From Nitrososphaerota archaeon (GTDB taxonomy: Archaea; Thermoproteota; Nitrososphaeria; Nitrososphaerales; Gagatemarchaeaceae), in NCBI GenBank assembly GCA_029785825.1, contig JAFLYY010000001.1, positions 434,001-498,000 of the forward strand: a DNA stretch of 64,000 bases, in the 5' to 3' direction. A program made the position numbers and the translations under genes. Shown here piece by piece: positions 21,862 through 37,323 of this stretch (the stretch's first letter is position 1; each line of letters starts with the position of its first letter). The notes below the pieces were generated by a model. That model searched no databases. It was not told the origin of the DNA and worked only from the letters and a program-made list of their open reading frames with translations.

Positions 21862-23058
21862 TTACTTCACGAGCTCGAAGGCGGTGGAGATCCCCTGGCC
21901 GACCCCGATGCACATCGTGGCGAGCCCATACCTCTCCCCTCTCCGCTTCATCTCGTGCAGGAGGGTGGTGGCTATCCGCGCGCCGCTGCAACCGAGCGGG
22001 TGCCCCAGCGCTATGGCCCCGCCGTTAGGGTTGACCTTGTTCAGTTCGAACCCGGGCATCTCGGCCGTGCATGCGAGGACCTGGGCCGCGAACGCCTCGT
22101 TGAGCTCCACGACCCCGAACTCTTCGAGGCTCATCCCAAGCCGGGAGAGGAGCTTGCGGGTCGAGTGGACAGGCCCGATCCCCATGAAGCTGGGGTGGAC
22201 CCCCGCGGTCGCAGACCCCAGAACCCTGGCCATCGGCTTCGCTCCGAGCGAGCTGGCCTTCTCCTCGCTCATCAGCACGAGGGCCGCGGCCCCGTCGTTG
22301 ATCCCGGACGAGTTCCCCGCCGTAACCGTCCCTCCCTCGCGGAAGGCGGGCTTCAGCCTCGAGAGCTTCTCCATGGAGGTGTCGGGCCTGGGTCCCTCGT
22401 CCTCGGACACCCCCTCAGGGTTCTCCTTCGTGCTCACCGGGACCAGTTCATCTTTGAATCGCCCCGACCTGGTCGCCTCGACGGCCTTCCTGTGGCTGGC
22501 CAGGGCGAACTCGTCCTGCGCCAAACGCCCGATCTTGTACTTCTCGGCGAGGTTCTCGGCCGTCTCCCCCATGGACAGCGGCGGGTAGTCTTCGGGGAAC
22601 GCCGGGTTGACGAACCGCCACCCGATAGTCGAGTCCACCAGTCCCGCGCCTCCCCTCGCGTATCCGGATTCCGGCTTGAGAGTCACCAGGGGGGCCCGCG
22701 TCATGCTCTCGACCCCTCCCGCCAGGAGCACGTCTCCCTCTCCGGCCGCTATCACCCTGGCAGCAGAGTTGACCGCCTCCAACCCTGACCCGCAGAGCCT
22801 GTTCACCGTCGCCGCGGGGACCGAGTAGGGGATCCCTGCGAGGAGGGTGGCCATCCTTGCGACGTTCCTGTTGTCCTCCCCCGCCTGGTTGGAGCACCCG
22901 AAGTAGACGTCGTCGACGGACTTCCCGTCCACCCCCGACCTCTCCAGCGCCCTCCTGAGGACGAGAGCCCCGAGGTCGTCCGGCCTCACCGACTTCAGCG
23001 ACCCGGCGTACTTGCCGATGGGGGTCCTGAGAGCTTCAACGACGACGACCCCTTTCAT
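21862..23058 (-). CDS. Acetyl-CoA acyltransferase (thiolase)
   Basis: A 398-residue thiolase. Seen: nucleophile C89 in NRLCGSGLEAV, the NEAFAA motif, H and C in ALGHPLGCSGAR and the C-terminal MCIGVGQG. GGVESMTRAPLV and GIGPVHSTRKLL resemble beta-ketoadipyl-CoA thiolases (PcaF/PaaJ), but acetoacetyl-CoA or 3-ketoacyl-CoA thiolase cannot be excluded. The ATG at 23058 starts the family sequence. GAGATAAG 27 nt upstream may be a TATA box. RHS-derived sequence begins immediately upstream, and the two crotonase genes of the same strand lie on the far side of the 14-kb RHS island. Confidence 0.92.
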   Translation of the reverse strand: MKGVVVVEALRTPIGKYAGSLKSVRPDDLGALVLRRALERSGVDGKSVDDVYFGCSNQAGEDNRNVARMATLLAGIPYSVPAATVNRLCGSGLEAVNSAARVIAAGEGDVLLAGGVESMTRAPLVTLKPESGYARGGAGLVDSTIGWRFVNPAFPEDYPPLSMGETAENLAEKYKIGRLAQDEFALASHRKAVEATRSGRFKDELVPVSTKENPEGVSEDEGPRPDTSMEKLSRLKPAFREGGTVTAGNSSGINDGAAALVLMSEEKASSLGAKPMARVLGSATAGVHPSFMGIGPVHSTRKLLSRLGMSLEEFGVVELNEAFAAQVLACTAEMPGFELNKVNPNGGAIALGHPLGCSGARIATTLLHEMKRRGERYGLATMCIGVGQGISTAFELVK

Positions 23059-23093
23059 GGTCCACGCGGACCTTCTCGGGCTTATCTCCTTTG

Positions 23094-23440
23094 CTGACGC
23101 GGTGGTGTATTCCACGATTTGGCTTCGTAGTCTCCGCTCCAAGAGAGAAGGAACCTTCCGCGGCTGTGCCCGCTCCCCATTCGGCGGTGGCAGCCGTAGT
23201 CAGGTCCGCCACAGGGTCCCACCACTCGTGCCCGTTCACGTCGACGATCTTCATGGGGTTGTCCCTTGCGTACATGTAGCGGTTCAGGCTCATCGGGTTC
23301 TGAAGTCGAACCGACTACCGAGTCCTCCGTGATGAACCTCCCCGTCGTCGGGTCGTAGTACCTAGCCCATATGTAATACAAACCTGTCGCCGAGTCGTAT
23401 GGCTTCCCAGTGTACATGAACTCTTCGTGCCCCACCATGT
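23094..23440 (-). pseudogene. RHS core fragment A, frameshifted
   Basis: The minus strand encodes GHEEFMYTGKPYDSATGLYY and RYYDPTTGRFITEDSVVGST, then shifts frame near 23300 into MSLNRYMYARDNPMKIVD and NGHEWWDPVADLTTA. This is the RHS-associated core of the same subtype as fragment J (32.2 kb). After LTTA the tail is lost and the sequence runs into the thiolase promoter. The fragment begins inside the 3' end of the preceding partner gene (23498-23986). Not expected to be functional. Confidence 0.75.
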
Positions 23441-23497
23441 CGGACTTCTCCCCGACAGGGAGGAAGATAGCAGAGAAGCGCGCGAGGAAGAGGTTGC

Positions 23498-23986
23498 TCA
23501 TGATGGGCCTCGTGCTCGCAACTTTTGGGTCAGCCACGAATACAGGTTGGTACCAAGCCTCCTGCTCTTTGCGTTCTTCTGAATCACAAGAACTGAACTG
23601 GCACCCTTAATTTTTATCAGCAGCTGCGGCCGCAGACCAAAGGTAATGCTGGGAGGGATGGTCCGAGCCAGGCTCACTTCTTCGACGTCTCCGTAGCCTA
23701 GGGATTTGTGGCCCCCGGGCATCCAGATTTCAAAAGAATCGTCTCGAAAGACCGACCTCTTTATGACGAATGCGTGATTCAACCTGTAGACTTCCACACT
23801 GAGCCAGACCGCAATGAATAGTGTTATGACTCCGGGGATGTGGTTAGGGGTAGGACTCGGAGGAAGGAACAGACCGAAGGCGAAGACGAAGAGAATGACT
23901 GCGGCGGCCAGCGTAATCAATGTATCCGCAAGCAAAGAAACCTCGAAGACCACTGAGGGTCCAAGTTGCCTTGATTTCGCGTTCAT
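23498..23986 (-). CDS. Small membrane protein, partner of RHS tail B (PH-like family 1)
   Basis: A 162-residue protein with two membrane helices (LITLAAAVILFVFAFGLFL; VITLFIAVWLSVEVY), then a beta-rich domain of bacterial-PH type (FEIWMPGGHKSLGYGDVEEV...QLLIKIKGASSVLVI) ending in LYSWLTQKL. It is clearly related to the gene at 33000-33464, with the same layout and the same LYSWL end. It starts 7 nt after the RHS tail B stop, the position of an immunity gene in RHS/CDI modules. That role is inferred; no family is named. Confidence 0.6.
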   Translation of the reverse strand: MNAKSRQLGPSVVFEVSLLADTLITLAAAVILFVFAFGLFLPPSPTPNHIPGVITLFIAVWLSVEVYRLNHAFVIKRSVFRDDSFEIWMPGGHKSLGYGDVEEVSLARTIPPSITFGLRPQLLIKIKGASSVLVIQKNAKSRRLGTNLYSWLTQKLRARGPS

Positions 23987-23993
23987 TCACCTT

Positions 23994-24854
23994 CTAAGAC
24001 TCGGCAAGTAGACTCTCCAGCTGACTGTAGATGGCGTCGTCTAGGGCGGGGTCCTCTTGGAGACGAAGTTCAACGTAGGTGCCCACGCTGCCCGCTAAGA
24101 GAAAACCAGCCGCTGTGGACGCACCAAAGTCGAAGAAGCCAAACACAAACTGCACAGTAGCTGCTGCGAGGGTACCTGCAGCCAACGAGTCTGGGACGCG
24201 TTCATTCATCGCATTGTTTGAGACATCATACTCTATCACCAACGGCAGCAGCGCATATGCGATTGCCGTTTGAAGAGCGCCAACAGTTCCAAGTGAACCA
24301 GCAAGAATAGGCATAAGCCAGACCGGGATTTCAAGGCCTGGCGTATTGGTATAAATCAAGAAGGTCAATAAAGTGATTATGTCTTTCTCCGTGTGGTGAC
24401 TGGTTTGTGAGGGCGAGGAAGCCGTTTGCGTCGTAGTGGTGGTGGTCGTGCATTGCGGGTTTGCCGGGTCCGAACCGCAATACGGCGTACCCCCACCATC
24501 CCCTGTTGAGACGGCCATCACGTGCCCAGTCGGGTCCACGTACCTCATCGGGTTGTCTTCGGCGTAGAGGTACCTGTTCTGGGAGAGAGGGTCCGTGAGG
24601 GTCCCGTTGTAGGAGTCCTCCGTGATGAACCTCCCCGTGGTCGGGTCGTAGTACCTCGCCCCTTCGTAGTAGAGCCCCGTCGACTCGTCGAGGAGCTTCC
24701 CTGTGTACTGGAACAGCTCCTCCCCCACCATCGCGTAGTCCATCCCGTAGGGGACGTAGTTCGAGCTGAAGGAAGAGACAATTGACGCGGGCATCACAAG
24801 TCTGGTGCTCCCAAGCGCGTCTTCGTGCAGGTACCTGATGCTGAAGTTCACCAT
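23994..24854 (-). CDS. RHS C-terminal fragment B with hydrophobic tail
   Basis: 286 residues from the first ATG; the same frame extends upstream (SIGGSTTTKRFYAGGLQLAG) to a TAG near 24902, so the N-terminal RHS shell is missing. Residues 1-110 are the RHS-associated core (HEDALGSTRLVMPAS, VPYGMDYAMVGEELFQYTGK, YYDPTTGRFITEDSYNG, YLYAEDNPMRYVDPTGH). The tail after a Thr-rich linker is hydrophobic (IITLLTFLIYTNTPGLEIP; LAGSLGTVGALQTAIAYALL; TLAAATVQFVFGFFDFGAST), unlike nuclease toxins. A membrane-acting or membrane-anchored effector is possible. A partner gene follows at once. Confidence 0.65.
   Translation of the reverse strand: MVNFSIRYLHEDALGSTRLVMPASIVSSFSSNYVPYGMDYAMVGEELFQYTGKLLDESTGLYYEGARYYDPTTGRFITEDSYNGTLTDPLSQNRYLYAEDNPMRYVDPTGHVMAVSTGDGGGTPYCGSDPANPQCTTTTTTTQTASSPSQTSHHTEKDIITLLTFLIYTNTPGLEIPVWLMPILAGSLGTVGALQTAIAYALLPLVIEYDVSNNAMNERVPDSLAAGTLAAATVQFVFGFFDFGASTAAGFLLAGSVGTYVELRLQEDPALDDAIYSQLESLLAES
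24517..24809 (-). repeat. 293-bp RHS core repeat, left copy
   Basis: Reading the minus strand from AGCACCAGAC to CACGTGAT, every base matches the plus-strand copy at 33614-33906 when compared by eye. A third copy at 30673-30915 matches 243 bp with one difference. Flanking sequence diverges sharply on both sides. This suggests recent duplication or gene conversion of the core. Confidence 0.85.
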
Positions 24855-25212
24855 CCCCGCCAGTTGGAGTCCACCTGCATAGAAGCGTTTCGTGGTGGTG
24901 GAGCCCCCGATGGAGTTCGTCTCCTAGCGGACGTTCACCCCGACAGATGCCCGGGGGGCCGGCCGCTGGGACCGAAAGGGGAAACGGGTTGGACTCGGCA
25001 AGGAGGCAAGCCAGTGATCAGGAGGCAGGGTGAATCCCAATTCCCGAGGTACACTCGGCCGTCCAAATGAAGTTGTTCAGCAAGACCTGCCGTGGAGGAA
25101 ACGAGAGGCCACGCGAGTTACCTCCTGCCGACCGAACCTCTGACCTTTAAGGGACTCGCGCGGTGGAAGAGGACCCTCGAATGGGACCACACACCGCGGA
25201 ATTCTGCTCAAA
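24855..25212. other. Intergenic stretch without recognisable gene
   Basis: About 360 nt between the RHS fragment B start and partner gene C. The right end of the minus-strand reading continues the RHS repeat of fragment B (to the TAG near 24902). The remainder has a CTTTAAAGG-like spot near 25146 but no convincing frame. No RNA gene was recognised. Confidence 0.5.
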
Positions 25213-26088
25213 TCAGAGCTCCGATGGGTCTCTACCGTGATATCTGCTTTGGGCCAATCTGAGCGGAACGAGCGTGGCAACAACTGTCATGAGAACCACA
25301 CCGACTGACTGGATGGGCAGAACTGGGCCCAAAAGGCCTCCGGCGGCAATCGAACCTACAGTTGTAAGATTACCGATGAACAAGCCGACAGAAGCAACCC
25401 ACCTCGGGACGGGTGTCATGAACGAAGGTTTCCAGATTCCATAGACACCTGGTGCGTCCAAGAAAAGTAAGAAACCCGCTTGAGAAGTCGCGAACGAAAA
25501 CGCCTGAGAAGTGGGGATTTGAAAGAGGAAATAGTTGCTAGTTAACCATAGCGCTCCCCCAAAAACTGTTAACCCCAAGAGAAGAAGAGCAGACGCCTTC
25601 CGAACTATCGAAAATGCCGACTCATCGCGTTCAGGCGTCTCTGTCGGAGTCGCCTGGCTCTCCCTCGACGCGATGAGAGCCAAGAAGCCTTCTCGTTGGG
25701 GTGCCGCTATCTTGGCTTTGTGGACCTTCCCATGAATGGAGAAGCTAACAGTTTTTCCTCTGAGCCGGAACCTATCCACCTGCGAAAGAGGGATTCTGAC
25801 GGCGCCATTGCGGGCAGCCAACGCCTCTAGTGGGAGCTTGGTCAGGCGTCCACGGGCTCGGGAAGAGACGAAAGCGAGCACGAGCCAACTGCCGATTCCC
25901 GCTGCAAGACCCTCGATGAACCCTCCTAGCGTTCCTGTTGCCAGATTGACTGTAACCAACATCGTTACGAAGAGCACGAAAAAGTAGACCGGCGAGACGA
26001 CCTGAACGCTGATAATCGCGTTCTCTGTAAACCAATAGCTCCTGACAAAATAGTAGTGTGCCAACAAGTGGGTAGTCGAGTCACTCAA
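25213..26088 (-). CDS. Polytopic membrane protein, partner of RHS tail C (family 2)
   Basis: A 291-residue protein beginning SDSTTHLLAHYYFVRSYWF, with two N-terminal helices (VSPVYFFVLFVTMLVTVNLA; GGFIEGLAAGIGSWLVLAFV), a cytoplasmic beta-rich segment (IPLSQVDRFRLRGKTVSFSI) and four more helices. It is a clear homologue of 27639-28493 (AHYSFTTSYWFTE, LSDVGQMTLKGREVRF, PLPRWFAFVALAFLNLSTV). The TTG overlaps the tail C stop (TTGA), so the two are translationally coupled. An immunity or membrane-receptor role is inferred from position. Confidence 0.65.
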   Translation of the reverse strand: MSDSTTHLLAHYYFVRSYWFTENAIISVQVVSPVYFFVLFVTMLVTVNLATGTLGGFIEGLAAGIGSWLVLAFVSSRARGRLTKLPLEALAARNGAVRIPLSQVDRFRLRGKTVSFSIHGKVHKAKIAAPQREGFLALIASRESQATPTETPERDESAFSIVRKASALLLLGLTVFGGALWLTSNYFLFQIPTSQAFSFATSQAGFLLFLDAPGVYGIWKPSFMTPVPRWVASVGLFIGNLTTVGSIAAGGLLGPVLPIQSVGVVLMTVVATLVPLRLAQSRYHGRDPSEL

Positions 26089-26615
26089 AGCAATCCAAAG
26101 ATCCCGGTCATCACCGTGCCATAGCCTTCGTCCCAAGCGGTCTCCACTCCCAAAGGTGTTGCATTCGGTCCGGCGAGTTCCAGATACGCTAATGCTGACG
26201 CATCACCCGCAGCAATCGCAGCGTCAAAGGGGATCGCACCTTCCTCAGCAAAAGCGGTAACAAGAACTCCCGCGACGGCGGTTCCGTAGAGATATGAAAG
26301 ATACTTCGAATCTGCTTGCTCGCAAGTGGCCGAACCCTGACACAAAGGCAACGAAGGCGTAGTCGATGAGGGCTGCACGCAGTCCCTCACTTCTCCCTGC
26401 TGGCAGGTCCGCTCGTCGCTCGTCGTCGTTGTCGTCACGGTGGTCATGGTGGCCGTCGACGTCGGCGTGGAGACTGTGCAGTACGACCTCTGAGCAGTGT
26501 CCGGCGCCGAGCCTGGAATCAGATGGTGCCCGAGGGGCCGACGTGCCTCGGGAGGTCGTCCACCTCGTAGACCGTTGTAGGTGTCCTGGGTGACGAACCT
26601 CCCGACGGAGAGCAT
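26085..26615 (-). CDS. RHS C-terminal fragment C with tail of the GPNATP family
   Basis: 176 residues. Only the last piece of an RHS core remains (SVGRFVTQDTYNG), followed by degraded core and a Thr/Ser linker (TATMTTVTTTTTSDERTC). The tail has RTCQQGEVRDCVQPSSTTPS, a hydrophobic segment (YLYGTAVAGVLVTAFAEEGA) and AGPNATPLGVETAWDEGYG. The same tail type is seen in fragments E, F and H. The first codons lie inside the 3' end of the preceding partner gene D. Its stop overlaps the partner gene start by 3 bases (TTGA). Confidence 0.6.
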   Translation of the reverse strand: MLSVGRFVTQDTYNGLRGGRPPEARRPLGHHLIPGSAPDTAQRSYCTVSTPTSTATMTTVTTTTTSDERTCQQGEVRDCVQPSSTTPSLPLCQGSATCEQADSKYLSYLYGTAVAGVLVTAFAEEGAIPFDAAIAAGDASALAYLELAGPNATPLGVETAWDEGYGTVMTGIFGLL

Positions 26616-26899
26616 TTGTTGGCCGCTGTTGGGTGTGACTGTTTCTTAAGGTATCGTCGTACCCATAAGACCCAGAACAAACCTCCCAGCAATGCCACGG
26701 CTATTTCGATAATGGGTGAAGCCTGTGGGAACATGTCGGAAGACTTGACTGACTCGGCAACTATCAAAAGGACAAAAACAAGTATGACCAGCCTAATCAT
26801 GAGTGGCCGGATGTCAGCAGGTTTCATCGTGATAATATCGGGCCCTTTCGTTTCCGATTTGTATGGAGTCAATTTGGGATAGCTTCGTTCCAGCTTCAT
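26519..26899 (-). CDS. Small two-helix membrane protein, partner of RHS tail E (family 3)
   Basis: 126 residues. ADIRPLMIRLVILVFVLL and SPIIEIAVALLGGLFWVLWV are membrane helices joined by a short loop (AESVKSSDMFPQA). The degenerate copy at 34739-34938 has MKPFQFRPITVRLIMLVLAL and the same loop. It starts 10 nt after the tail E stop. The last ~35 residues read through RHS-derived sequence of fragment C in another frame, so the original protein may have ended near RRYLKKQSH. An immunity-like role is inferred only. Confidence 0.55.
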   Translation of the reverse strand: MKLERSYPKLTPYKSETKGPDIITMKPADIRPLMIRLVILVFVLLIVAESVKSSDMFPQASPIIEIAVALLGGLFWVLWVRRYLKKQSHPTAANKCSPSGGSSPRTPTTVYEVDDLPRHVGPSGTI

Positions 26900-26909
26900 T
26901 CTCTCAACT

Positions 26910-27281
26910 TCAAGGCAAATTGCTTATGATGTCTCCAAGCCACTGTGAGAAGATATTTAGGGGTGTAGAAGCAAAAGCCCCCTCGGACGTCGCATTCGGA
27001 CCTTCAGTGGCTGTGTATACGGCTGCATCCCACGTGGAGGCAGCAAGTCCACCTGTTGTTGAAGCGAAGGCAGCCGGAACAATCGCACCGACGCCAGTCA
27101 GCGCGAGAGGCGCTGTAACCACCGAAGCGAGAGCTGACGCAACAGTCAACACTCCAAGTAGAGCGACAGCGAGGCCAGCTTGGACTTCGCCCGGGCTCGG
27201 AAGAGATACTTCTGGCGAGCCATCGAAACCCGTCCCAAGGCAATGGACGTCTCCTTCAGGGCACTGAACTTCTGTCGTCAC
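26910..27281 (-). CDS. Headless RHS tail E (GPNATP family)
   Basis: 123 residues starting TTEVQCPEGDVHCLG, the same linker as fragment H. Alanine-rich hydrophobic helices follow (GLAVALLGVLTVASALASVV; APLALTGVGAIVPAAFAST), then EGPNATSEGAF and a C-terminal IFSQWLGDII. The RHS core that should precede it is absent. Instead the sequence meets tail F head to head at a GTCGAC palindrome (27304-27309). Translation would need a start in the remaining linker, so expression is doubtful. Confidence 0.5.
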   Translation of the reverse strand: MTTEVQCPEGDVHCLGTGFDGSPEVSLPSPGEVQAGLAVALLGVLTVASALASVVTAPLALTGVGAIVPAAFASTTGGLAASTWDAAVYTATEGPNATSEGAFASTPLNIFSQWLGDIISNLP

Positions 27282-27282
27282 G

Positions 27283-27642
27283 GTGGTCGTGGTGGCCGTC
27301 GATGTCGACGAGCGGACCTGCCGGCAGGGAGAGGTGAGGGACTGCGTGCAGCCCTCATCGACTACGCCTTCGCTGGATAGCTTGTGTCAGGATTCACTCA
27401 CATGCCAGCAGGCAATCCTCATGTATGAGGGGCCACTAGGCTCCACAGGCGGCGTTGGGGTGGCTACTGTCGAGCTAGGACCCCTAGCATGGCTCAACGA
27501 TGGAGCTATGGTGGTGGGGGATGCCATGGCTCTGTACTACATTCAGAGTTACGGCCCACAAGCGACACCAACCGGTGTACTACAACGGTTTGAGAGCGGA
27601 TACTCGAATTTCCTCGAACCGTTCCGAGAAGACATCATGTGA
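27283..27642 (+). CDS. Headless RHS tail F (GPNATP family)
   Basis: 119 residues. After an antisense piece of tail E linker come ERTCRQGEVRDCVQPSSTTPS, a helix (VATVELGPLAWLNDGAMVVG), GDAMALYYIQSYGPQATPTG and FESGYSNFLEPF. It is strongly similar to tail C, down to the cysteine pairs. No RHS core precedes it. The stop overlaps the partner start by 4 nt (GTGA). As it lacks its shell it should not be deliverable; it may be a stored module. Confidence 0.55.
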   Translation: MVVVAVDVDERTCRQGEVRDCVQPSSTTPSLDSLCQDSLTCQQAILMYEGPLGSTGGVGVATVELGPLAWLNDGAMVVGDAMALYYIQSYGPQATPTGVLQRFESGYSNFLEPFREDIM

Positions 27643-28493
27643 GTACGATGGCCAACCCGCTACAGGCGCACTATTCTTTCACAACGAGCTACTGGTTCAC
27701 AGAAGACGAAATACTCTGGATTCGAGTCGTCCCTGTAGCCTATTTCTTTGTGATTGCCGGGGTCATCGCGGTCTTCTTCTTCGTTTTCACCGGCTCCTTT
27801 GGTGGGCTGGAGGCAGGCGCTGTCAGCTGGGCAATCCTCACGCTAGTGTCGAAGCGATCCCGCAGGGGGCTTGCCGGAGCCTCGGTGGATGCCTTAGCTG
27901 ACGAGCGGGGGCTGCACAGAATCCTTCTCTCAGATGTCGGTCAGATGACGCTCAAAGGAAGGGAGGTGCGATTCTTGTTCGGCGGGAAGCGCTACAGAGC
28001 CAGCATGAGCGAAGCTGACCGGAGTCAATTCGAGGCTCTCCTCTCCATGCACGCTAAACAGTTAGCCCTGACCACTGTAGTAGCCCCGAAGCCCGAGGCC
28101 GTCGCACGACGCTCCAAGAACCTCACTTGGATTATAGCCGTGGCCCTCTATGGTATCTTAATGGGTTGGCTTGGGTTGGTCGCGTTTTCGTTTGGAGCGT
28201 TCACCGGGCCTGCAGGGCTTTGGTTCGGGGGCTCCGACCTGGCTGTTGCCTCGTTCTTCAACGCGGTCATCTTCATCGGCGCAGTTAAGCCAGTCTTGAT
28301 GTCCCCGCTACCACGCTGGTTTGCGTTTGTGGCGCTTGCGTTCCTCAACCTGTCAACCGTGTTTGATCTGGTGGGGGGGTCATACTTCTTTGCCTTTGAT
28401 TTGGCACTCAAGACGTTAGGAATCCTGCTTCCGGCTGCCATCCTTGGCCGGGTGGCGTATCATCGCCTAGCGGACGACCTTGGCGTGGAATAA
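27639..28493 (+). CDS. Polytopic membrane protein, partner of RHS tail F (family 2)
   Basis: A 284-residue homologue of the partner at 25213-26088: same AHYSFTTSYWFTEDEI start, two helices, a central soluble part (RILLSDVGQMTLKGREVRFLF) and four C-terminal helices (WIIAVALYGILMGWLGLVAF; SFFNAVIFIGAVKPVLM; FAFVALAFLNLSTVFDLVGG). The GTG overlaps the tail stop; an ATG three codons on is an alternative. The matching pair order and coupling in two places support a functional unit. Confidence 0.65.
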   Translation: MSTMANPLQAHYSFTTSYWFTEDEILWIRVVPVAYFFVIAGVIAVFFFVFTGSFGGLEAGAVSWAILTLVSKRSRRGLAGASVDALADERGLHRILLSDVGQMTLKGREVRFLFGGKRYRASMSEADRSQFEALLSMHAKQLALTTVVAPKPEAVARRSKNLTWIIAVALYGILMGWLGLVAFSFGAFTGPAGLWFGGSDLAVASFFNAVIFIGAVKPVLMSPLPRWFAFVALAFLNLSTVFDLVGGSYFFAFDLALKTLGILLPAAILGRVAYHRLADDLGVE

Positions 28494-28822
28494 GCAAGGC
28501 CAATCTATCGCCTGGCGGCGATGTTCCTAACTATATTCTCAGCCGTGTGGGACACGGACGCCTAAAGGGGCAGTTCTCCTTGCCTTCTCTGCACTAGTGA
28601 GCCGTCACTTGCACCAATATCGGCAGGGACTCGTACCCGGAAGTCGATAAACCCGGGGGCCACACCACCTCAGGTGTAGGCCTATCACGCGCTCCTCTAT
28701 TGCTTCCCCTGACCTGACCTTCTTACGGCCGGCCTGGCCTCCTCAGTTTCAGTAGGCGCTGACCGGGCTGCTTGGCATCGACTGCCCTAGCCATCTAGGG
28801 CGCGTTCACCCAATATTCGCCG
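28494..28822. other. Intergenic stretch without recognisable gene
   Basis: About 330 nt after partner F. I see no sensible frame on either strand and no tRNA or rRNA pattern. ACACC and GGTGT halves near 28660-28680 could form a short hairpin. It separates the RHS modules from an ATPase/PIN segment. Confidence 0.4.
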
Positions 28823-29194
28823 GTGGTCTCGAAGGGCGGCGTCGAAGGGTCAGAGGAATCGGAAGGCCGGGGGGCGGCGAAGGTCCTGAGGCTGACCGAG
28901 GTTCCGCTGATCAAGGAGCCCCTCAAGGAGAAGGAGGCTGAAAGGCTGTCCCTCATCTCCTCGCCGACGGTGAGAAGCCTCGGAGTAGCTTTTACGCCGG
29001 GGAAGACTGATTTCCTCATCTCATCGCACTCGATGCCCGACCTGAACAGGTACCTGGCCCTCCTGAAGTCGGTGTACGGCGAGTTGAGCGTGGTCGGCGA
29101 CCAGTCGAAGCCAGCCTTCCTGAGGGAGATTCCGAGGATCGTAGGGTTACCCACTGCGATTCGCAACGACGCGCCATCTCCATCGTTAGGCTGA
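28823..29194 (+). CDS. Hypothetical protein fragment
   Basis: 123 residues, not recognised. The middle looks like real protein (AERLSLISSPTVRSLGVAFT; DLNRYLALLKSVYGELSVVG), with strand-helix alternation like the N-terminal domain of conjugation-type ATPases. I cannot prove that. The ends look random. It may be a remnant of the same mobile gene as the P-loop fragment at 30060. Confidence 0.35.
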   Translation: MVSKGGVEGSEESEGRGAAKVLRLTEVPLIKEPLKEKEAERLSLISSPTVRSLGVAFTPGKTDFLISSHSMPDLNRYLALLKSVYGELSVVGDQSKPAFLREIPRIVGLPTAIRNDAPSPSLG

Positions 29195-29250
29195 CAATAT
29201 CTCAGGAATTCCGTGTCTGGAACGTTCTGTTCGCGCGCGATTGAGGATAG

Positions 29251-29421
29251 TCAGCGCTTGGCCGCGCGAATTCTCGCCATCTTGGCGAGGCCGGTGTAGA
29301 CCTGGCCAGCGGCTTTCAGGTACTCCCTCCGTTCTACGGGTTCCATCTCCTTCATCTCCTTGGAAAGCTCGGAGCGTACTTTCTCCAGGTCGCGCCGGGT
29401 CACGTCGTTTCGCTTAGCCAA
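29251..29421 (-). CDS. Small basic protein coupled to the PIN gene
   Basis: 56 residues, rich in Arg, Lys and Glu and probably all-helical (RRDLEKVRSELSKEMKEMEP, VERREYLKAAGQVYTGLAKM). The TTG precedes the PIN stop by a few bases (TTGGCTAAG), so the frames overlap and are likely cotranslated. Possible antitoxin, but VapB-like antitoxins usually lie upstream, and no DNA-binding motif is evident. Confidence 0.5.
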   Translation of the reverse strand: MAKRNDVTRRDLEKVRSELSKEMKEMEPVERREYLKAAGQVYTGLAKMARIRAAKR

Positions 29422-29899
29422 GCCCCAGATACCTCTCGACTTCGGTCGGGTCCCAGACTATTAAGCTTGCAAGGCCAGCAGAGGAATTCACCTTGTTGAT
29501 CTTCATTGCGACCTTTCCATTGAAGTGCCCTCTGTCCCACGAGGCAAGGCAGTCGCACCTCAGCAGCGTCGCAGAGGCATAGTGCATCAGGTCGATGAAC
29601 CTTCCAACTCCCAGAATCCTGTGAGAAAGGTACTGGTCCACAAGATTCCAAAGCCAGTCATCCAGATTCTCTACCGCTTCGATCTCGTGCTCTTCGACGG
29701 TCCTTGCGAGCCGCGAAGCCGCCTCGCTGCCGCGCATCTCCGCTGCCTTCGCCGCTTCGAGGAAGAAGGGAGGGCCGATGGCCGTCGGGATGCTCCGGTT
29801 CCTGAGATGACGCAGGAACCGGACAGACTCGGAGTGGAACTCGTCCTGATCATCCGCCGTCGCGATTACCACCGAGGTGTCGACGTACACCTTCGTCAA
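29414..29899 (-). CDS. PIN-domain ribonuclease (VapC-like)
   Basis: A 161-residue PIN domain, a Mg-dependent RNase fold common in VapC toxins. Acidic residues at the expected places: D7 (VYVDTSVVIA), E48 (FFLEAAKAA), D103 (FIDLMHYASA) and D122 (ASWDRGHF). The TTG is about 29 nt after a CTTATCTC box, so it may be leaderless. No VapB is seen upstream; a 56-residue protein overlaps its 3' end. It lies within the RHS island. Confidence 0.82.
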   Translation of the reverse strand: MTKVYVDTSVVIATADDQDEFHSESVRFLRHLRNRSIPTAIGPPFFLEAAKAAEMRGSEAASRLARTVEEHEIEAVENLDDWLWNLVDQYLSHRILGVGRFIDLMHYASATLLRCDCLASWDRGHFNGKVAMKINKVNSSAGLASLIVWDPTEVERYLGLG

Positions 29900-30059
29900 A
29901 CGTATCGACCAGAGGTCATCTCACAGCTTATCTCGGCAGCCGCACTTGAGCGCTCATGTCGTAGTAGAGAATCGGGGAGAGAGCAGGTCGTACCGATGCG
30001 GCGCCAAATCAGCGCTCAGCCCTGTTAAATCCCGACCTGCCTTCTCCGACTGATTCCGA

Positions 30060-30254
30060 TTGGGCCAGACCCTCGACAGCGACGACACGAAGTTCCACAT
30101 GCTCGTCACCGGCGGGACCGGGAGCGGCAAGACCAACGCCGTCCTGCACATGCTCAAGCTCCTCTTCAGCAAGAAGGAGGAAGGGAAGCCGCATTTCTTA
30201 GAATCTGGGGTCCGAGCAAGACGAGGAGACTTGTTGAAATTGGCGATGCTGTAG
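30060..30254 (+). pseudogene. 5' end of a P-loop ATPase gene, truncated
   Basis: The TTG, 30 nt after TGTTAAATCC, starts QTLDSDDTKFHMLVTGGTGSGKTNAVLHML, where GGTGSGKT is a Walker A loop followed by a helix, as in HerA/VirB4-type (DUF87) DNA-translocating ATPases. After GKPHFL the frame degenerates and stops within 20 codons. No Walker B follows. It is probably a mobile-element remnant cut by rearrangement. Confidence 0.6.
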
Positions 30255-30672
30255 ATTTGATGCAAAGCAATCATCAACTATTACCCGAATTCGCAAGCAA
30301 GCTGTATCTGGGCGGAGAAAACGCCATGGGCGGAACTTATTTTTGCCAAGCATGCGGGATGGCAACATGTTCTATTACAGCCTAGGAGGCATCTTGGATT
30401 TCATCACCTACCCTCCAGGCTACAGAAAAGAAGATGTTGTCGGGTGTGCGAAAAGGCATTCCTTCGGAGATACGCTCAAAAGTATCGGGTAAGATTCTGG
30501 GTCATCCTCCATATACGTGGTGCCCCTACGAGGAGAGTAGTGATATTCTTACCAAGCTAGAAGCCGAATCACCAAAGCTGCAAGTCGTTCTTGACTGCCC
30601 TCCAGTTGTTGCTTGGCGGATCAACGAGCTTCCAATGGTCAATTCCTCATCGAAAGGAATGCTGCGCTCACG
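30255..30672. other. Rearranged stretch before RHS fragment G
   Basis: About 420 nt of lower GC. Short plausible frames exist, e.g. AVDLMQSNHQLLPEFASKLY then YFCQACGMATC (30250-30380), and a 46-codon frame at about 30349-30489 with FYYSLGGILDFITYP. None is long or recognisable. The sequence meets the RHS core abruptly at 30673, so it looks like debris from rearrangement. Confidence 0.4.
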
Positions 30673-31436
30673 ACGTCCCCTACGGGATGGACTACGCGAT
30701 GGTGGGGGAGGAGCTGTTCCAGTACACAGGGAAGCTCCTCGACGAGTCGACGGGGCTCTACTACGAAGGGGCGAGGTACTACGACCCGACGACGGGGAGG
30801 TTCATCACGGAGGACTCCTACAACGGGACCCTCACGGACCCTCTCTCCCAGAACAGGTACCTCTACGCCGAAGACAACCCGATGAGGTACGTGGACCCGA
30901 CTGGGCACGTGATCGTGGCAGTCGGGAGCGGCGGCGGAGCAACCACTCAGCCAGAGGATTTCATGACCTGGTTGGCGAACAGTGGATTCTTCAATGACCC
31001 TGTGCACCAGACTCAGTTGGCGTTTGTGGTCGTTGACGCGGCGGCGCTCACTCTTCAGGCGTCCGATATTGAGTTATTCAGGGATGGTATCGCTAATGCG
31101 GCGATAAGAGTCCTGTTTTCGGGAGGTAAGCTTTCATACTCCGCCCAACAGCTAGTGGGTGATATCTACAACAACAACCTTCCTGGTGTTCTCGCCGCTG
31201 GATATGGGGTCGCAGGGAATGCCATCCACATTTTTGTTAACGGTCTCACCATCTGGGATAGGCTCGCTTTTGTCGCTGCCGTCGGATTGAACTGGGGCGG
31301 GGACGTAATTACTGAAGGAGATCTGGACTTCGCGGGCAACGCGCTCACGGGATCCGCTCTAGCCCTAGACGCGGGTATTTTGGCGTACGAGATGGCATCC
31401 GCTTATGATCAGTATCTCTCATCGTACAGCTCCTGA
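30591..31436 (+). CDS. RHS C-terminal fragment G with alanine-rich tail
   Basis: 281 residues if read from the first start, but only from 30673 is it RHS: VPYGMDYAMVGEELFQYTGK, YYDPTTGRFITEDSYNG, NRYLYAEDNPMRYVDPTGH. A Gly linker (VIVAVGSGGG) shared with fragment I leads to a tail (FMTWLANSGFF; QLAFVVVDAAALTLQASDIE; NALTGSALALDAGILAYEMA) homologous to the fragment I tail. The first ~27 residues are foreign sequence joined at 30673. The partner gene starts 10 nt downstream. Confidence 0.62.
   Translation: MTALQLLLGGSTSFQWSIPHRKECCAHDVPYGMDYAMVGEELFQYTGKLLDESTGLYYEGARYYDPTTGRFITEDSYNGTLTDPLSQNRYLYAEDNPMRYVDPTGHVIVAVGSGGGATTQPEDFMTWLANSGFFNDPVHQTQLAFVVVDAAALTLQASDIELFRDGIANAAIRVLFSGGKLSYSAQQLVGDIYNNNLPGVLAAGYGVAGNAIHIFVNGLTIWDRLAFVAAVGLNWGGDVITEGDLDFAGNALTGSALALDAGILAYEMASAYDQYLSSYSS
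30673..30915 (+). repeat. RHS core repeat, middle copy
   Basis: 243 bp matching the core at 33672-33914 region and its inverted copy near 24.5-24.8 kb with a single base difference seen by eye (GACGACGGG against GACCACGGG). It ends in the linker just after CACGTGATCG. Confidence 0.8.
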
Positions 31437-31446
31437 GTGATGTGGC

Positions 31447-31968
31447 TTGGACGGCTCCTTCACCGCGCTCGGGTATGAGGACATCTCTCCCACCAACCCC
31501 CTATATTTCGTCCCAGCCGCAGGGATCCTGCAACTCCTCATACTGCTCGTGATAAGTACTGAAGGCGGGCCCGATTTCCTGTTTACGAACATCCCGCTCA
31601 TCGGCGACCCGTTTCCAATCTCCTTCTTGGCGTTCCTAATCTCCACTGTTTTTGAGGCAGTGGTAGTCAGGCATCGCAGGAAACCTCCATCCACGCTGAA
31701 TATCTCTTATTACGACCGAAGGCGGACGGGAGGCCAACTTGCTCTCTCATATTCGATACCCGGTGGTAAGACCCGAACTTCCATCGCCGTACGGAAGGTG
31801 AAATGGTATCCGACCAAGCCACTAACTCGGGTGGCTCATACCGTCGAGGGAAGAGTAAATGGCACAACGTCATCCATGATGGTGCTTTTCAAGAAACCAA
31901 GAATCTTCCTCTTGTTGGGCTTCTCAAGCGCCGAAGAGATGAACGAGGTCTACGAGTTGCTCAGATGA
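31447..31968 (+). CDS. Small membrane protein, partner of RHS tail G (family 4)
   Basis: 173 residues from a TTG. It starts DGSFTALGYEDISPTNPLYF, with helices PAAGILQLLILLVISTE and FPISFLAFLISTVFEAVVV, then a beta-rich domain (LNISYYDRRRTGGQLALSYS; RIFLLLGFSSAEEMNEVYEL). It is homologous to 36673-37179 in both halves (VGYE start, LGF...VYE-LL end). It follows a tail that is also homologous, so tail and partner families travel together. Role inferred. Confidence 0.62.
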   Translation: MDGSFTALGYEDISPTNPLYFVPAAGILQLLILLVISTEGGPDFLFTNIPLIGDPFPISFLAFLISTVFEAVVVRHRRKPPSTLNISYYDRRRTGGQLALSYSIPGGKTRTSIAVRKVKWYPTKPLTRVAHTVEGRVNGTTSSMMVLFKKPRIFLLLGFSSAEEMNEVYELLR

Positions 31969-32994
31969 GCTCCTTCGGACCTCTGACTTCGAAGGTGGTC
32001 AAATCCAAGGCACATTATCTCCGTCAGGACACTCCGGAGAGCAAGAAGCTCGTCGCGAGCGCCTCGCCCGTCACTCCTTTCAGCTTCGGATACCTCCCCT
32101 TCCGAGTGAAGTATCAGACGGCAGGGCACGAGGAGTCCAGGTACAAGGGGAAGCCGCGCGACAAGACGACAGGTTTGTGTTGCATGGGGCGAGGGACTAC
32201 GACCCGACCACGGGGAGGTTCATCACTGAAGACTCGGTAGTCGGCTCCACAAGCGACCCGATGAGCCTGAACCGCTATATGTACGCCTGGGACAACCCCA
32301 TGAAGATCGTCGATATGAACGGGCATGAGTGGTGGGACCCTGTGGCGGACCTGACGACCGCCGCATCCGATGTGGTTGGTGCAGCAACCGACGTGGCGAA
32401 GGCGGCGTCGAACGCGTGGAACAGCCTTCCGCCCGCTACATCGAATGCTGTTAGCTCGGTAATCAACACAGCTTCCACGGTTGGAAACACGGTTTCTATG
32501 GTCGTCCGGTCGACAGGGAGTTGCGTTCAGTCGACTATCTCCCAAGCGTCTCAGAGCATCTCTTCGAGCCTTGGCAGTCTGTCCGAAGCCGTTGCGGGGA
32601 CACTGACCACTGTGCGGTCATCGCGCATCATCGGACAGATAGGGAAGGCCGTGTTATCGTGCTTAGCGGGCGCCTGCGGGGCCACCGCGGTCGCGGCAGC
32701 AGCAGGAATAGTTGCTGCTTCTACAGGTGCCCTAGTCGGGGGGCGGTCGCCGCTGGAACGGGGGCGGCCGCATTTACTGTAGGAGCTTTTGTCGCCGTTG
32801 GCTTGCTTTCAATTGGAGCAGGATTCGCACTCGGCTACACAATCAAGAATGGCGTCAGCTCAACTCCACAAGGTGCCTGGAAAGCATTTGGAGCTGGAGT
32901 TACAATTATCCAACACCCAGAGGATCCGATCGAGACGCCTTCATACTGGCCATCGTCTCTTCCACCGCTCCCGGGGCCACTTTCCTTCTGGTAA
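31965..32994 (+). pseudogene. RHS C-terminal fragment J, frameshifted twice
   Basis: Starts within the last codons of the preceding partner gene. RHS repeat remnants (HYLRQDTPESKKLVASAS; KYQTAGHEESRYKGKP) shift frame near 32175 to ARDYDPTTGRFITEDSVVGS, NRYMYAWDNPMKIVD and NGHEWWDPVADLTTA, the subtype of fragment A. The Ala/Ser/Val-rich tail shifts again at a six-G run (32738-32743) and then reads VGAFVAVGLLSIGAGFALGY to a TAA. The tail is complete only if the G run is corrected. The partner gene starts 5 nt after the stop. Confidence 0.65.
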
Positions 32995-32999
32995 TTTCA

Positions 33000-33464
33000 A
33001 TGGACCAAGACAGACATGGTAGGCACGGCGGAGACTCGCTTTTCAAATATTCGCTCATTCCATTGCTAGTTGTCTGCCTCTTCTTACTGGCAGTCTTCTT
33101 TCCAATCTTGATAGGGACCGTCTTCTTCACCCCCAATCTTGTTGCGGGTTTGTTCTATTTTGTGTTGGACTTCTTGCTTGCCGGGTCGGCTTTGCGATTT
33201 TATTCCTATGACGTCCATCAAGCAAGTTTCTTCGACGACTACTTCATTGTTCGAGGCAGAGGCCCGAGGAGGAAGTTTCGGTACGAACAAGTTGCAAAGG
33301 TCGAGAAAGTTACCGTGGCTCCCATCTTGACAAACCGCACCCAAGTTCGCATCAATCTGCTAGACGAAGCTCCAATCTTGATTCCGGGGAATCTCCGTAA
33401 CAGAAAATTGAAAGCTGATTTGTATTCTTGGCTGTCTGGCCGAGTCCAGAGACGCGCTCCATAG
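33000..33464 (+). CDS. Small membrane protein, partner of RHS tail J (PH-like family 1)
   Basis: 154 residues: two helices (YSLIPLLVVCLFLLAVFFPI; LVAGLFYFVLDFLLAGSAL), then a PH-like beta domain (FFDDYFIVRGRGPRRKFRYE, VRINLLDEAPILIPG) ending DLYSWLSGRV. It is homologous to 23498-23986. The ATG is 5 nt past the tail J stop. Intact even though its tail is frameshifted, as expected if loss of the partner would be harmful; that reading is inference. Confidence 0.62.
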   Translation: MDQDRHGRHGGDSLFKYSLIPLLVVCLFLLAVFFPILIGTVFFTPNLVAGLFYFVLDFLLAGSALRFYSYDVHQASFFDDYFIVRGRGPRRKFRYEQVAKVEKVTVAPILTNRTQVRINLLDEAPILIPGNLRNRKLKADLYSWLSGRVQRRAP

Positions 33465-33493
33465 ACGGCTAGCCCTACCAGGCTTGGACCCGG

Positions 33494-34399
33494 GTGGGCA
33501 ATATGCACGCGAAGAGTACGACCATTTTTGCGAAATACTTCTATGCAGGAGGCATCCAGGTGGCGCAGATGGTGAACTACACCACATACTACCTCCACCA
33601 GGATGCTTTAGGAAGCACCAGACTTGTGATGCCCGCGTCAATTGTCTCTTCCTTCAGCTCGAACTACGTCCCCTACGGGATGGACTACGCGATGGTGGGG
33701 GAGGAGCTGTTCCAGTACACAGGGAAGCTCCTCGACGAGTCGACGGGGCTCTACTACGAAGGGGCGAGGTACTACGACCCGACCACGGGGAGGTTCATCA
33801 CGGAGGACTCCTACAACGGGACCCTCACGGACCCTCTCTCCCAGAACAGGTACCTCTACGCCGAAGACAACCCGATGAGGTACGTGGACCCGACTGGGCA
33901 CGTGATCGCGATACTCGGAGGAGGAGGGTCCGACCTGCTGTCGCCGTCCCAGATTTTGGACCTGCTCTCTTCCGCCGCGTCCAAGGCCATCCAAGCGATA
34001 CAGCAGGTGATAGGTTCCCTGGCGAGCCCGTTCGGGTTCTCGTCGACGTCGATGGCCACCACGACCACCGTGACGACAGAAGTTCAGTGCCCTGAAGGAG
34101 ACGTCCATTGCCTTGGGATTAATGGCTACCCTTCTACACCTCTTCCGAGCCTGGGCCAGGTTAATTGGAATTGGAACGCTGCGCTTTCCTTGTTGGTGCT
34201 TGTCGGAGGAGCTATGGTGACGACAGGGGCCATTTTGACGGGTAATGCGCCGGCGGCACTTGGTACTGCTGATGGCGATTACTAGGTACTAGATTACCTA
34301 ACCGGGACCCCGAATCCAAACCCTGGGGTTGCTATGGAGAAATGGGAGTATGGTGCTCTAGGAGGACTTGTTGGAGGATACCTTCTTACGTTCATGTAG
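33494..34399 (+). pseudogene. RHS C-terminal fragment H, frameshifted near its end
   Basis: The most complete cassette: FYAGGIQVAQMVNYTTYYLH, QDALGSTRLVMPAS, core identical in DNA to fragment B, VDPTGH, then a linker (MATTTTVTTEVQCPEGDVHC) as in tail E and a short hydrophobic tail. The frame stops at 34283-34285, but the next frame continues VLDYLTGTPNPNPGVAMEKW and ALGGLVGGYLLTFM to a TAG at 34397-34399, matching the ends of tails C and F. So a frameshift near 34280 has truncated it by about 37 residues. Confidence 0.65.
33614..33906 (+). repeat. 293-bp RHS core repeat, right copy
   Basis: Plus-strand copy of the element at 24517-24809, identical by eye, in opposite orientation and 8.8 kb away. 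Similarity begins at AGCACCAGAC and ends at CACGTGAT. Recombination between the two would invert the island centre. Confidence 0.85.
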
Positions 34400-34410
34400 C
34401 GGTAGTCCAC

Positions 34411-34719
34411 ATGAGATTCGATGGCACAATCGTGATTAAGAACGAGGGCTCTTCGGGCGGGTTAATCGTTGGATCAATTCTCTGCCGGGTCATAGTGATT
34501 ACCATCTTGGTTGACGTCATTGCACTTGTCGTGGTTTTCTTCGCGGCGGGCATGGCGCCGGAGCTGGCAAATGCGGCGGAAGGAGCTGCTATTGGAGCCA
34601 CAATCTATACCATTACAGCTCGGAGAAGAGCTACAATCAAAGGAGTGGTAGGCTGTGCGGTCTTGAGTTCGGTAATATTGGGAAGCTATCCACTGTTGTT
34701 CTCGTCCAAGATTCCATAG
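34411..34719 (+). CDS. Small membrane protein downstream of RHS tail H
   Basis: A 102-residue protein, not recognised. Helices: GGLIVGSILCRVIVITILVD running into VIALVVVFFAAGM, then EGAAIGATIYTI and GVVGCAVLSSVILGSYPLL. It starts 11 nt after the corrected tail H stop, the position of a partner gene. No second copy in the window, unlike the other partners. Confidence 0.5.
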   Translation: MRFDGTIVIKNEGSSGGLIVGSILCRVIVITILVDVIALVVVFFAAGMAPELANAAEGAAIGATIYTITARRRATIKGVVGCAVLSSVILGSYPLLFSSKIP

Positions 34720-34738
34720 GAAAGCGGGCGTGGTAGAA

Positions 34739-34938
34739 ATGAAAGGGTCTTGTATTGCCAAGATGAAACCTTTCCAATTCCGGCCAATCACGGTAAGGTT
34801 GATTATGCTTGTTCTTGCCCTTTCGCTAGCCGCCGAATCAAGCATGATGACATATTCAAGCATGTTCAGCCATTGTCGAAATATCTGCAGCCTAGTTGGG
34901 AGGTTTTCTCTGGGTCCTATGGTAACGACAACATTAAC
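34739..34938 (+). pseudogene. Degenerate family 3 partner gene, cut by the IS element
   Basis: MKPFQFRPITVRLIMLVLAL and AESSMMTYSSMFS match the partner at 26519-26899. Then a frameshift and in-frame TAG and TAA follow, with IVEISAA and LGGFLWVLW still legible in another frame. The match resumes after the IS (from 35966) into the same RHS junction as in fragment C. So the IS landed in an already decaying copy. Confidence 0.65.
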
Positions 34939-35959
34939 TGTAGAGTATCACGATTGTTGTCCGCTTTTGTTAGCAGCATCCTTGTCCGCTAACGTCGCCT
35001 CCCTTTGTTGAAGAGTCTCTTGTCGTCGTAGACCTCTGCGGGCGTCCTCCACCCTAGGGCCTGGCTCTTCCTCCACTGGTTGTATCTCCTGTCGAACTTC
35101 CTCAGTTCTCTCTTGAAGTGGGTCAGGGAGGAGAACCTGACCTGCGATATCAGCTCGCCCCACAGGACCTTGTGGTGGCTCTCGATCTTGCCTCTGCCTC
35201 TCGAATAGTACGGCTTGCCGAAGATCGGTCTGATGTGGTGCCTGGCCAGCTCCGCCTTGAACACCTTCGCGACGAACTGCTTCCCATTGTCAAGGTACAT
35301 CTCCCTCGGTGTCCTTCCCCTGCGGAGCGCGCGGTTCAGGGCGTCTATCGACTCATTGGCGCTCTTGTGGAGGTACGCTCCCGGCCCCACCCTATAGCGC
35401 GACCTGGCGTCCGTGAACCCTGTCACGTAGACCTTCCCCACGCCCGCTATGCGGAACTAGAAGGTGTCGCCCTGCCACATCGGGCCCACGTGGTACCTCT
35501 GGAAGCGCTTCAAGGGCTGGGGCTTCGGCTTGACCCTGACGAGCATCCCGTGGCGCTTGATGACCCTATGGACCGTCATCCAGTGGCAGGGCAGGTCGTG
35601 CTGGAACTTGATGCGCCGGGCTCCCCATGGGGGGCGCTTCTGCTTGAGCTTCAGGATTCTGTCTTCCAGGCTCTTGGAAAGGGAGTTGCCCGGGTGTCGT
35701 GGACCGGGCCTCCCTGGCATGAGCTTCTCCATTCCACCACTCTCGTAGGCTCTGATCCACCTCCTCAGGGTCCTCTCCGTTATCCCGTAGACCGAGCAGA
35801 TGTCCTCCTGCTGTCTGACATCCTCTTTGTACAAGAGGACCGCTCTCATTCGTACCTCTATGGCGGAGTCTCTCCCCATGCACGGGGTCGAGGCATCGCT
35901 TGGTGTAAGCGGACAACAATCCTGTTACGCTAACCGGACAACATTGCTGTTACTCTACA
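34939..35959 (-). mobile_element. Complete IS element with 6-bp target duplication
   Basis: A 1021-bp element with imperfect terminal inverted repeats of about 45-50 bp. Both ends begin TGTAGAGTA and carry two TTGTCCG-type motifs (TTGTTGTCCGC and TTGTCCGCT on the left). The direct repeat ATTAAC flanks it at 34933-34938 and 35960-35965, so the boundaries are secure. The single transposase gene runs on the minus strand and is split by an in-frame TAG, so this copy is probably not autonomous. Confidence 0.88.
34989..35879 (-). pseudogene. DDE transposase with in-frame amber stop
   Basis: The N-terminal 140 residues hold a helix-turn-helix (LYKEDVRQQEDICSVYGITE, RTLRRWIRAYESGG) and the segment PPWGARRIKFQHDLPCHWMT. 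After MWQGDTF comes TAG (35457-35459), and the same frame continues FRIAGVGKVYVTGFTDARSR, DNGKQFVAKVF and RGRGKIESHHK, the integrase-core (rve) D-D-E pattern of IS3/IS481-like transposases. Only this one codon separates two otherwise intact halves of about 295 residues in total. A TAC (Tyr) to TAG change would explain it. Confidence 0.85.
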
Positions 35960-35994
35960 ATTAACAAACGGTTACACTCTGCCGCGGCCAGCAA

Positions 35995-36663
35995 ATGACA
36001 TCCGTCAGGAGGTTCATCACTGAAGACTCCTACAACAGGACCCACACGGACCCTCTCTCCCAGAACAGGTACGTCTACGCCGAAGACAACCCGATGAGGT
36101 ACGTCGACCCGATGGGGCACGTGATCGTGGCAGTCGGGAGCGGGGGCGGGACCACGAGTACACAGACGACTCCTACCCCCATGGATGAAGCCGATTGGAT
36201 TCCCAAGGTCTATATCCCAAGTCACTTGGTGCAGCTAGCAACAACAGTGGTTGGCGGAATCACACTGGTTTGGGACCCCGCCCTGGGGAGCTATATGGGA
36301 TATACCTCACTGAGGCTGCGGTCGATGTGTTGGCCCAAGGCATGTTGGCGGTAGCCGATGTTGGCTTCTCAGGTGACATAGCCACCGACAACATCTCCGG
36401 AGCTGCCACAATCCTCGTCGGATACTCGTCGGACATTTTAGGAACCTTCTGGAACGGCCTCAACTTCCTGCAAAAGGCCGAAATCGTCGCCGAAGGTGCT
36501 GGCTATTATGGCTTGGATGCCCTGACGGGGGGGAACTCTGTCGGAAGCCGCGTTAGCCGCCGGCGCTACCGCGCTTGGCTGGGGTCTCGGAACTTATTTC
36601 GCCGAGGCAAACAATGCTTATCAGATGTACGCGGTGAGTTGCGAGTGGGGGGGTACCTGCTAG
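35995..36663 (+). pseudogene. RHS C-terminal fragment I, two compensating frameshifts
   Basis: Core remnant RRFITEDSYNRTHTDPLSQN and YVYAEDNPMRYVDPMGH, the Gly linker VIVAVGSGGG, then WIPKVYIPSHLVQLATTVVG. Near 36290 the frame must shift to read IYLTEAAVDVLAQGMLAVAD and YYGLDALTGG. At a seven-G run (36527-36533) it shifts back to the first frame: TLSEAALAAGATALGWGLGT, then YFAEANNAYQMYAVSCEW, to a TAG. The rebuilt tail is homologous to that of fragment G. The partner gene starts 9 nt later. Confidence 0.65.
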
Positions 36664-36672
36664 GTTTTGGGC

Positions 36673-37179
36673 ATGAAGACAGGGAGGTTCGACGCAGTCG
36701 GTTACGAAACGCCACCTGCCAGTATCACTCTCTTTCTGACGCTAGTCGGCACCCTACAGATTTTTCCGGTGCTGGCCCTCTCGGAATTTAGTGGAACATA
36801 TCTCTGGCTATACACCAAGCTGGTTTTTCCTTCATGTCTGATATTGATTCTTTCACTTCTGATTGCTGCCTACATCAACAGGAGACTGACGAGGGAGAAC
36901 TCGATCGGAGCCTATTCAGTCGATTTCGCTGACAACGGAAGAGGGGAGCTCGAGTTGTCCTACGCCAACACTCGCGGGGTGAGGAGGGAACACTTGGTGC
37001 CCAAATCTGTGACGATTAACCGGGTGCTTTGGCGAACGAATTGGAAGGGCGGACAGCCTGTGGATGGCGTAGTCGCTGCACTTGGAATCAAGTTCAAACA
37101 TCGCAGAGGCAGACTGCACTTGGGCTTTCCTACCGAGCAGGTGATGCGCGATGTGTACGAGATTCTACGACAGAGTTGA
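36673..37179 (+). CDS. Small membrane protein, partner of RHS tail I (family 4)
   Basis: 168 residues. KTGRFDAVGYETPPASI, helices FLTLVGTLQIFPVLALSEF and LVFPSCLILILSLLIAAYI, then a beta-rich domain (AYSVDFADNGRGELELSYAN; RLHLGFPTEQVMRDVYEILR). Homologous over its length to 31447-31968. ATG chosen; a TTG two codons earlier is also possible. Intact although its tail is frameshifted. Confidence 0.62.
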   Translation: MKTGRFDAVGYETPPASITLFLTLVGTLQIFPVLALSEFSGTYLWLYTKLVFPSCLILILSLLIAAYINRRLTRENSIGAYSVDFADNGRGELELSYANTRGVRREHLVPKSVTINRVLWRTNWKGGQPVDGVVAALGIKFKHRRGRLHLGFPTEQVMRDVYEILRQS

Positions 37180-37323
37180 AGTCTGTTACCTGCATGGAGG
37201 ATTGCGGCGCAGGTCCTGAGATCCTTATGCTGGCAGGTACATCGAAGCGGGGTAGGACGGCCGGAAGCCCATCCACGACCACGACCGGTCATGGATTCTT
37301 GCGACGCAGCATGGCGTGCTAGG

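Follow-up and report, generated by a model that had tools for sequence, protein, structure and literature searches.

Bacterial rhs/CDI loci contain orphan C-terminal toxin/immunity modules. The island analysed here is like such loci in its conserved core, variable tails and small downstream genes (Zhang et al. 2012, PMC3482391), and in its displaced headless modules and core recombination, but unlike them it is archaeal, has no intact parent gene in its genome, and combines hydrophobic tails with membrane-protein partners. Among polymorphic toxin systems, most immunity superfamilies have been reported absent from archaea (PMC3482391). A precedent for a membrane-acting RHS tip is Tse5 of Pseudomonas aeruginosa, an RHS pore-forming toxin with which the archaeal system would have in common the RHS shell, a membrane-acting tip (as proposed for the archaeal tails) and a cognate immunity gene (PMC10684867); Tse5, however, belongs to type VI secretion, whereas the full-length archaeal proteins have a signal peptide, and no sequence relation was found between them. 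The VARTIG modules of Thermococcales share an archaeal polymorphic-toxin-like layout, with a large protein, a hypervariable C-terminus and variable downstream genes, but are built on immunoglobulin domains rather than RHS, and are not known to include headless tip/membrane-partner cassettes (PMC8416519). No immunoglobulin Pfam match was obtained in the tails, partners or full RHS proteins studied here.

We judge it probable that the island is an accumulation of C-terminal RHS tips, displaced together with their immunity genes, from an archaeal polymorphic-toxin system exported by Sec; the modules would be membrane-acting and partly decayed with immunity retained, and this is the most economical explanation. 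The arrangement is already known from bacteria, and none of the libraries searched gave a match to the tail or partner families. The genes suggest a weapon system directed at membranes, of a kind little studied in archaea. Little is known of how archaea antagonise one another, and these co-varying tip and membrane-partner families, present in shell-bearing and shell-less genomes, are candidates for asking if archaeal cells attack the membranes of other archaea and if a PH-like membrane protein can protect them.

Headless RHS cassettes between two metabolic genes

The window, a 64-kb stretch of a 1.97-Mb assembly (8 contigs, 100% complete), contains the island at positions 23059-37323 (~14 kb), with cassettes on both strands (Table 1). 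The thiolase gene of about a dozen relatives lies only 64-170 nt after the hydratase gene, the two flanks being direct neighbours, which indicates that the island was inserted between them. In another species (genome G013), part of this island adjoins the same hydratase gene. Nine same-genus hydratase loci (L133, L135, L140, L142, L143, L147-L149 and L152) showed no thiolase within the ~1.4 kb covered, which makes the site a possible insertion hotspot. A gene for a PIN-domain protein (PF01850, 29414-29899, minus strand) separates the two halves of the array, and a short fragment of a HerA/FtsK/T2SSE-like P-loop ATPase (30060-30254, plus strand) is found just before cassette G.

Table 1. Features of the island and its flanks, with positions in the window; tail-to-partner spacing was read from the sequence.
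Feature	Position	Strand	Description	Evidence or remark
Left flank	21862..23058	-	thiolase	gene ends 23058
A	23060..23537	-	RHS core remnant, frameshifted, tail lost against thiolase gene; ORFs 23082-23537 and 23036-23293	TIGR03696 46 + 17.6 bits, two frames
Bp	23498..23986	-	partner of B, family P1 (membrane helices + predicted PH-like domain), 162 aa	homolog of Hp and of L043, L048, L049 partners
B	23994..24854	-	headless RHS core + hydrophobic tail, intact, 286 aa	TIGR03696 E 3.6e-19; 7 nt to Bp
Cp	25213..26088	-	partner of C, family P2, ~291 aa	33% identical to Fp over 275 aa; start overlaps C stop
C	26085..26615	-	tail, truncated core, Thr-rich Cys-pair linker, GPNATPLGV motif	49.6% identical to F
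D	26519..26899	-	partner of E, family P4 (grouped by eye), small membrane protein	starts 10 nt past E stop
E	26910..27281	-	core-less tail, 123 aa, EGPNATSEGA motif	tail profile match
F	27283..27642	+	core-less tail, GPQATPTGV motif	similarity to C, tail profile, motif
Fp	27639..28493	+	partner of F, family P2, 284 aa	4-nt overlap with F stop
G	30591..31436	+	headless core + tail, intact, 281 aa	TIGR03696 E 3.2e-19; 10 nt to Gp
Gp	31447..31968	+	partner of G, family P3, 173 aa	90% identical to orphan copy in G013
H	32122..32995	+	core + tail, frameshifted	ORFs in different frames; about 5 nt to Hp
Hp	33000..33464	+	partner of H, family P1, 154 aa	AlphaFold2 model: two membrane helices + PH-like domain
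I	33494..34399	+	core + tail, in-frame TAG at 34283-34285, tail continuing to 34399	TIGR03696 E 2.9e-19
Ip	34411..34719	+	partner of I, 102-aa membrane protein, no family assigned beyond itself	start 11 nt past tail stop
P4 copy	34757..34990	+	truncated second copy, partner family P4 (grouped by eye), beside IS transposase	MKPFQFRPITVRLIMLVLALSLAAES resembles MKPADIRPLMIRLVILVFVLLIVAES of D (by eye)
IS transposase	34989..35879	-	in two frames (HTH + rve domains)	Pfam PF13551, PF13683, PF00665
J	35995..36663	+	short core + tail, frameshifted near G run	TIGR03696 27.5 bits; about 9 nt to Jp
Jp	36673..37179	+	partner of J, family P3	29% identical to Gp
Right flank	37324..38118	-	enoyl-CoA hydratase	gene from 37324

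Seven RHS-core fragments were found in the island (A, B, C, G, H, I and J), as the initial annotation had proposed, with E and F core-less. TIGR03696 exceeded its cut-off at five places (E 1e-11 to 1e-20), far above chance, with weaker matches elsewhere, all within the island; the profile-level matches are those of A, B, G, H, I and J, and the shorter core of C was found by BLAST. The cores of B and G are 99% identical over 244 nt and diverge after it, those of B and I are 93% identical over 379 nt, and G, I and J have 142 nt in common at 92-94%. Cores up to 99% identical are thus followed by tails that are mostly unrelated, that is, a variable tail after a conserved core. At least eight variable, mostly hydrophobic tails have a membrane-protein gene next to them, starting between 4 nt inside and ~12 nt past the tail stop. 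The earlier description of almost every tail being followed within 0-12 nt by an intact membrane-protein gene therefore stands with this range, except that A is without a tail and the 3′ end of D runs into the C core fragment.

The absence of a full-length YD-repeat gene, claimed at the outset for the island, extends to the whole genome. No further RHS core above the TIGR03696 cut-off was found in the genome outside the island, and when a relative's full-length RHS protein (L039, 1965 aa) was compared with the whole genome, only residues 1635 onward matched, and only in the island; a YD-repeat shell with an export signal is absent from this genome by that comparison. The island by itself is hence not a complete RHS polymorphic toxin system, as the shell is missing, and what is present is the headless cassette layout of an orphan RHS tip/immunity module, the immunity role being putative. 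Use of the tips by an RHS shell elsewhere in this genome was rejected on the same comparison.

Full-length RHS genes and tail-partner pairs in relatives

Full-length secreted RHS genes are present in genomes of the same genus. One of these genomes (G023) encodes a 1965-aa RHS protein with a signal peptide, YD repeats and a hydrophobic tail ending GPSPQGAFSAF..., and the gene overlaps a P2 gene; a 1528-aa open RHS frame with the same tail/partner layout is found in another genus (G178, locus L122). PF05593 was detected in L039, L040 and L192, and signal peptides were read in L039 and L040. In another family of the order (G099), an RHS gene is followed by tail-partner cassettes in tandem. In G125, from another genus, a full RHS gene and a headless cassette lie 2.5 kb apart in opposite orientation and have 380 bp in common at 100%, on a contig that contains masked stretches; with that reservation, the identical bases are direct evidence of displacement or tip exchange through the core. 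The idea that the cassettes serve as a reservoir for an RHS shell elsewhere thus fits G125 and fails for the present genome. Two other loci of this set have their own features: the full-length RHS gene L040:4427-10543 (plus strand) has a soluble tail resembling a PD-(D/E)XK nuclease by eye, and L041:7323-8732 (minus strand), which overlaps a preceding full-length RHS gene, encodes a subtilase-family protease with a predicted signal peptide and a C-terminal membrane helix.

A mechanism can be proposed in which the RHS shell would carry one tip at its C-terminus, with the cognate membrane-protein gene next to it as in the clearest relatives, and recombination in the common core would switch tips, so that old tips would remain as headless core-tail-partner cassettes. 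The source genome has such cassettes on both strands and lacks the shell. The tips may insert into the target cell membrane via a hydrophobic hairpin, the partners may block this insertion within the membrane, and immunity would be kept against neighbours as the tips decay.

In other genomes, too, tails are found with partners and the two tend to vary together, which agrees with the original proposal of displaced RHS tip cassettes with cognate small membrane-protein genes. Homologous tails were found with homologous partners both in the window (C/F with P2, G/J with P3) and in relatives (L048/L049a with P1, L098a/L127 with P2). Across 22 pairs, which are non-independent, the tail and partner similarity matrices were correlated in a Mantel test (Spearman 0.24, p 0.001; clipped Pearson 0.23, p 0.005). 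The tails of H, L042 and L046 have similar starts and unrelated partners, a point against the pairing and also the pattern that a common pre-toxin region ahead of differing tips would give. RHS is present in 9/17 genomes with P1 vs 22/300 overall (p 1.8e-7, uncorrected for relatedness), and in 5/8 within the genus (p 0.03). In G020, where a P1 gene was first found without an RHS core, a matching tail with AGPNATPGEA lies directly upstream. Pairs of these types are found again in other genera and families. Both findings that could have spoken against the proposal, namely tails and partners failing to co-occur in other genomes or partners belonging to a known unrelated membrane family, were looked for; co-occurrence was found and no such family, and partner homologs occur also without RHS in several genomes.

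Decay of tips and retention of partners

The core-tail genes B and G are intact. The H and J tails are frameshifted, that of I has an in-frame stop, A has a frameshifted core and has lost its tail, and C and the partner gene D are truncated. Such lesions, together with the IS transposase inside the island and its GC content of 56% vs 64% around, would suit a decaying graveyard of duplicated RHS ends shuffled by IS elements and devoid of present function. We regard this as quite unlikely, since most partners and several tails are still open, the same pair types recur in other genera and families, and comparison of two species shows purifying selection on the partner Gp. In G013, Gp is kept while its tail is reduced to the final ~11 codons, and a transposase gene now lies upstream. 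Comparison of the two Gp copies gave dN 0.054 and dS 0.177 (dN/dS about 0.3), with fewer non-synonymous changes than under neutrality (p 0.0004), and part of this divergence may predate the tail loss in G013. That several tips have decayed while partners remain open fits displaced modules whose immunity would be retained against neighbours, as seen in one island and few cases.

Features of the tails and partner families

From their sequences, toxicity, membrane action and immunity of the tail/partner pairs are proposed, and membrane action is likely because tips and partners are both hydrophobic and the partners are membrane-located. A C-terminal pattern [TNS]P.[GEDA][AVYL], typically GPxATPxGA, was found in 15/27 tails, against a mean of 1.5 and a maximum of 7 in 2000 shuffled trials, a contrast that overstates independence because the motif was chosen from the same 27 tails, some of them related. 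This possible anchoring or docking signal, on tails of which many have long hydrophobic stretches, can also be read differently: the tails would be membrane anchors, the partners membrane receptors or assembly factors, and RHS a variable surface structure for recognition or adhesion rather than a toxin, in line with the signal peptides of the full RHS proteins and the prediction of membrane helices plus a PH-like domain for one partner family. This seems rather unlikely to us, as it leaves unexplained both the purifying selection on a partner whose tail is down to ~11 codons and the retention of partners by headless tails without a signal peptide, and a full-length RHS protein of the same genus (L040) has a soluble, nuclease-like tail (by eye).

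The partners form families P1 (Bp, Hp and relatives), P2 (Cp, Fp) and P3 (Gp, Jp), with Ip alone. Searches of Pfam, NCBIfam and PADLOC assigned neither tails nor partners to a credible family, and P1 had no Pfam match; in profile-profile comparison P1 joined neither P2 nor P3, and the link between P2 and P3 was weak (39.7% probability). The AlphaFold2 model of Hp, for which the alignment included Bp, has a mean pLDDT of 88.8 and shows two long helices, then a strand-rich domain and a C-terminal helix. In Foldseek searches of the PDB, its top matches were mostly PH folds (Rtt106, Vps36, SSRP1, GRK2), with a TM of about 0.35 and no E value below 0.006, so that the P1 C-terminal domain is likely PH-like; the PH-like partners of the initial annotation are borne out, as a prediction, for this one family. 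No viral structure was a useful match in Foldseek, and a viral-contig scan with the Fp partner found nothing.

For the tails, the model of E (pLDDT 58.7, two long helices) was too weak for a fold search and is at most consistent with a hairpin, and the tail profile had no meaningful match among solved structures. In a phylum-wide sample the tail profile found no genome besides the source genome, and P1 was found in two others. We tentatively propose, as possible rather than probable, a lineage-restricted archaeal RHS-tip superfamily that would put a hydrophobic hairpin into archaeal membranes, be marked by GPxATPxGA and be neutralised by small membrane-protein families, one of them PH-like, which would make an undescribed membrane-directed toxin/immunity class.

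Several genomes also have P1 and P2 homologs with neither RHS nor a recognisable tail. L124:2819-4114 and L126:4193-4780 encode P2-like membrane proteins whose N-termini have zinc-ribbon-like cysteines, and RHS is not nearby. Since P1 and P2 also occur alone, some with such cysteines, ordinary membrane proteins may have been the source of the partner families, with L124 and L126 as possible relatives of that source. On the tail side, the linkers of B, C, E, F and I are rich in Thr and contain two cysteines close together (CPEGDVHC, CQQGEVRDC, CGSDPANPQC); E and I are 47% identical over 77 aa, mainly in the linker, and some of these linkers are common to tails of different type.
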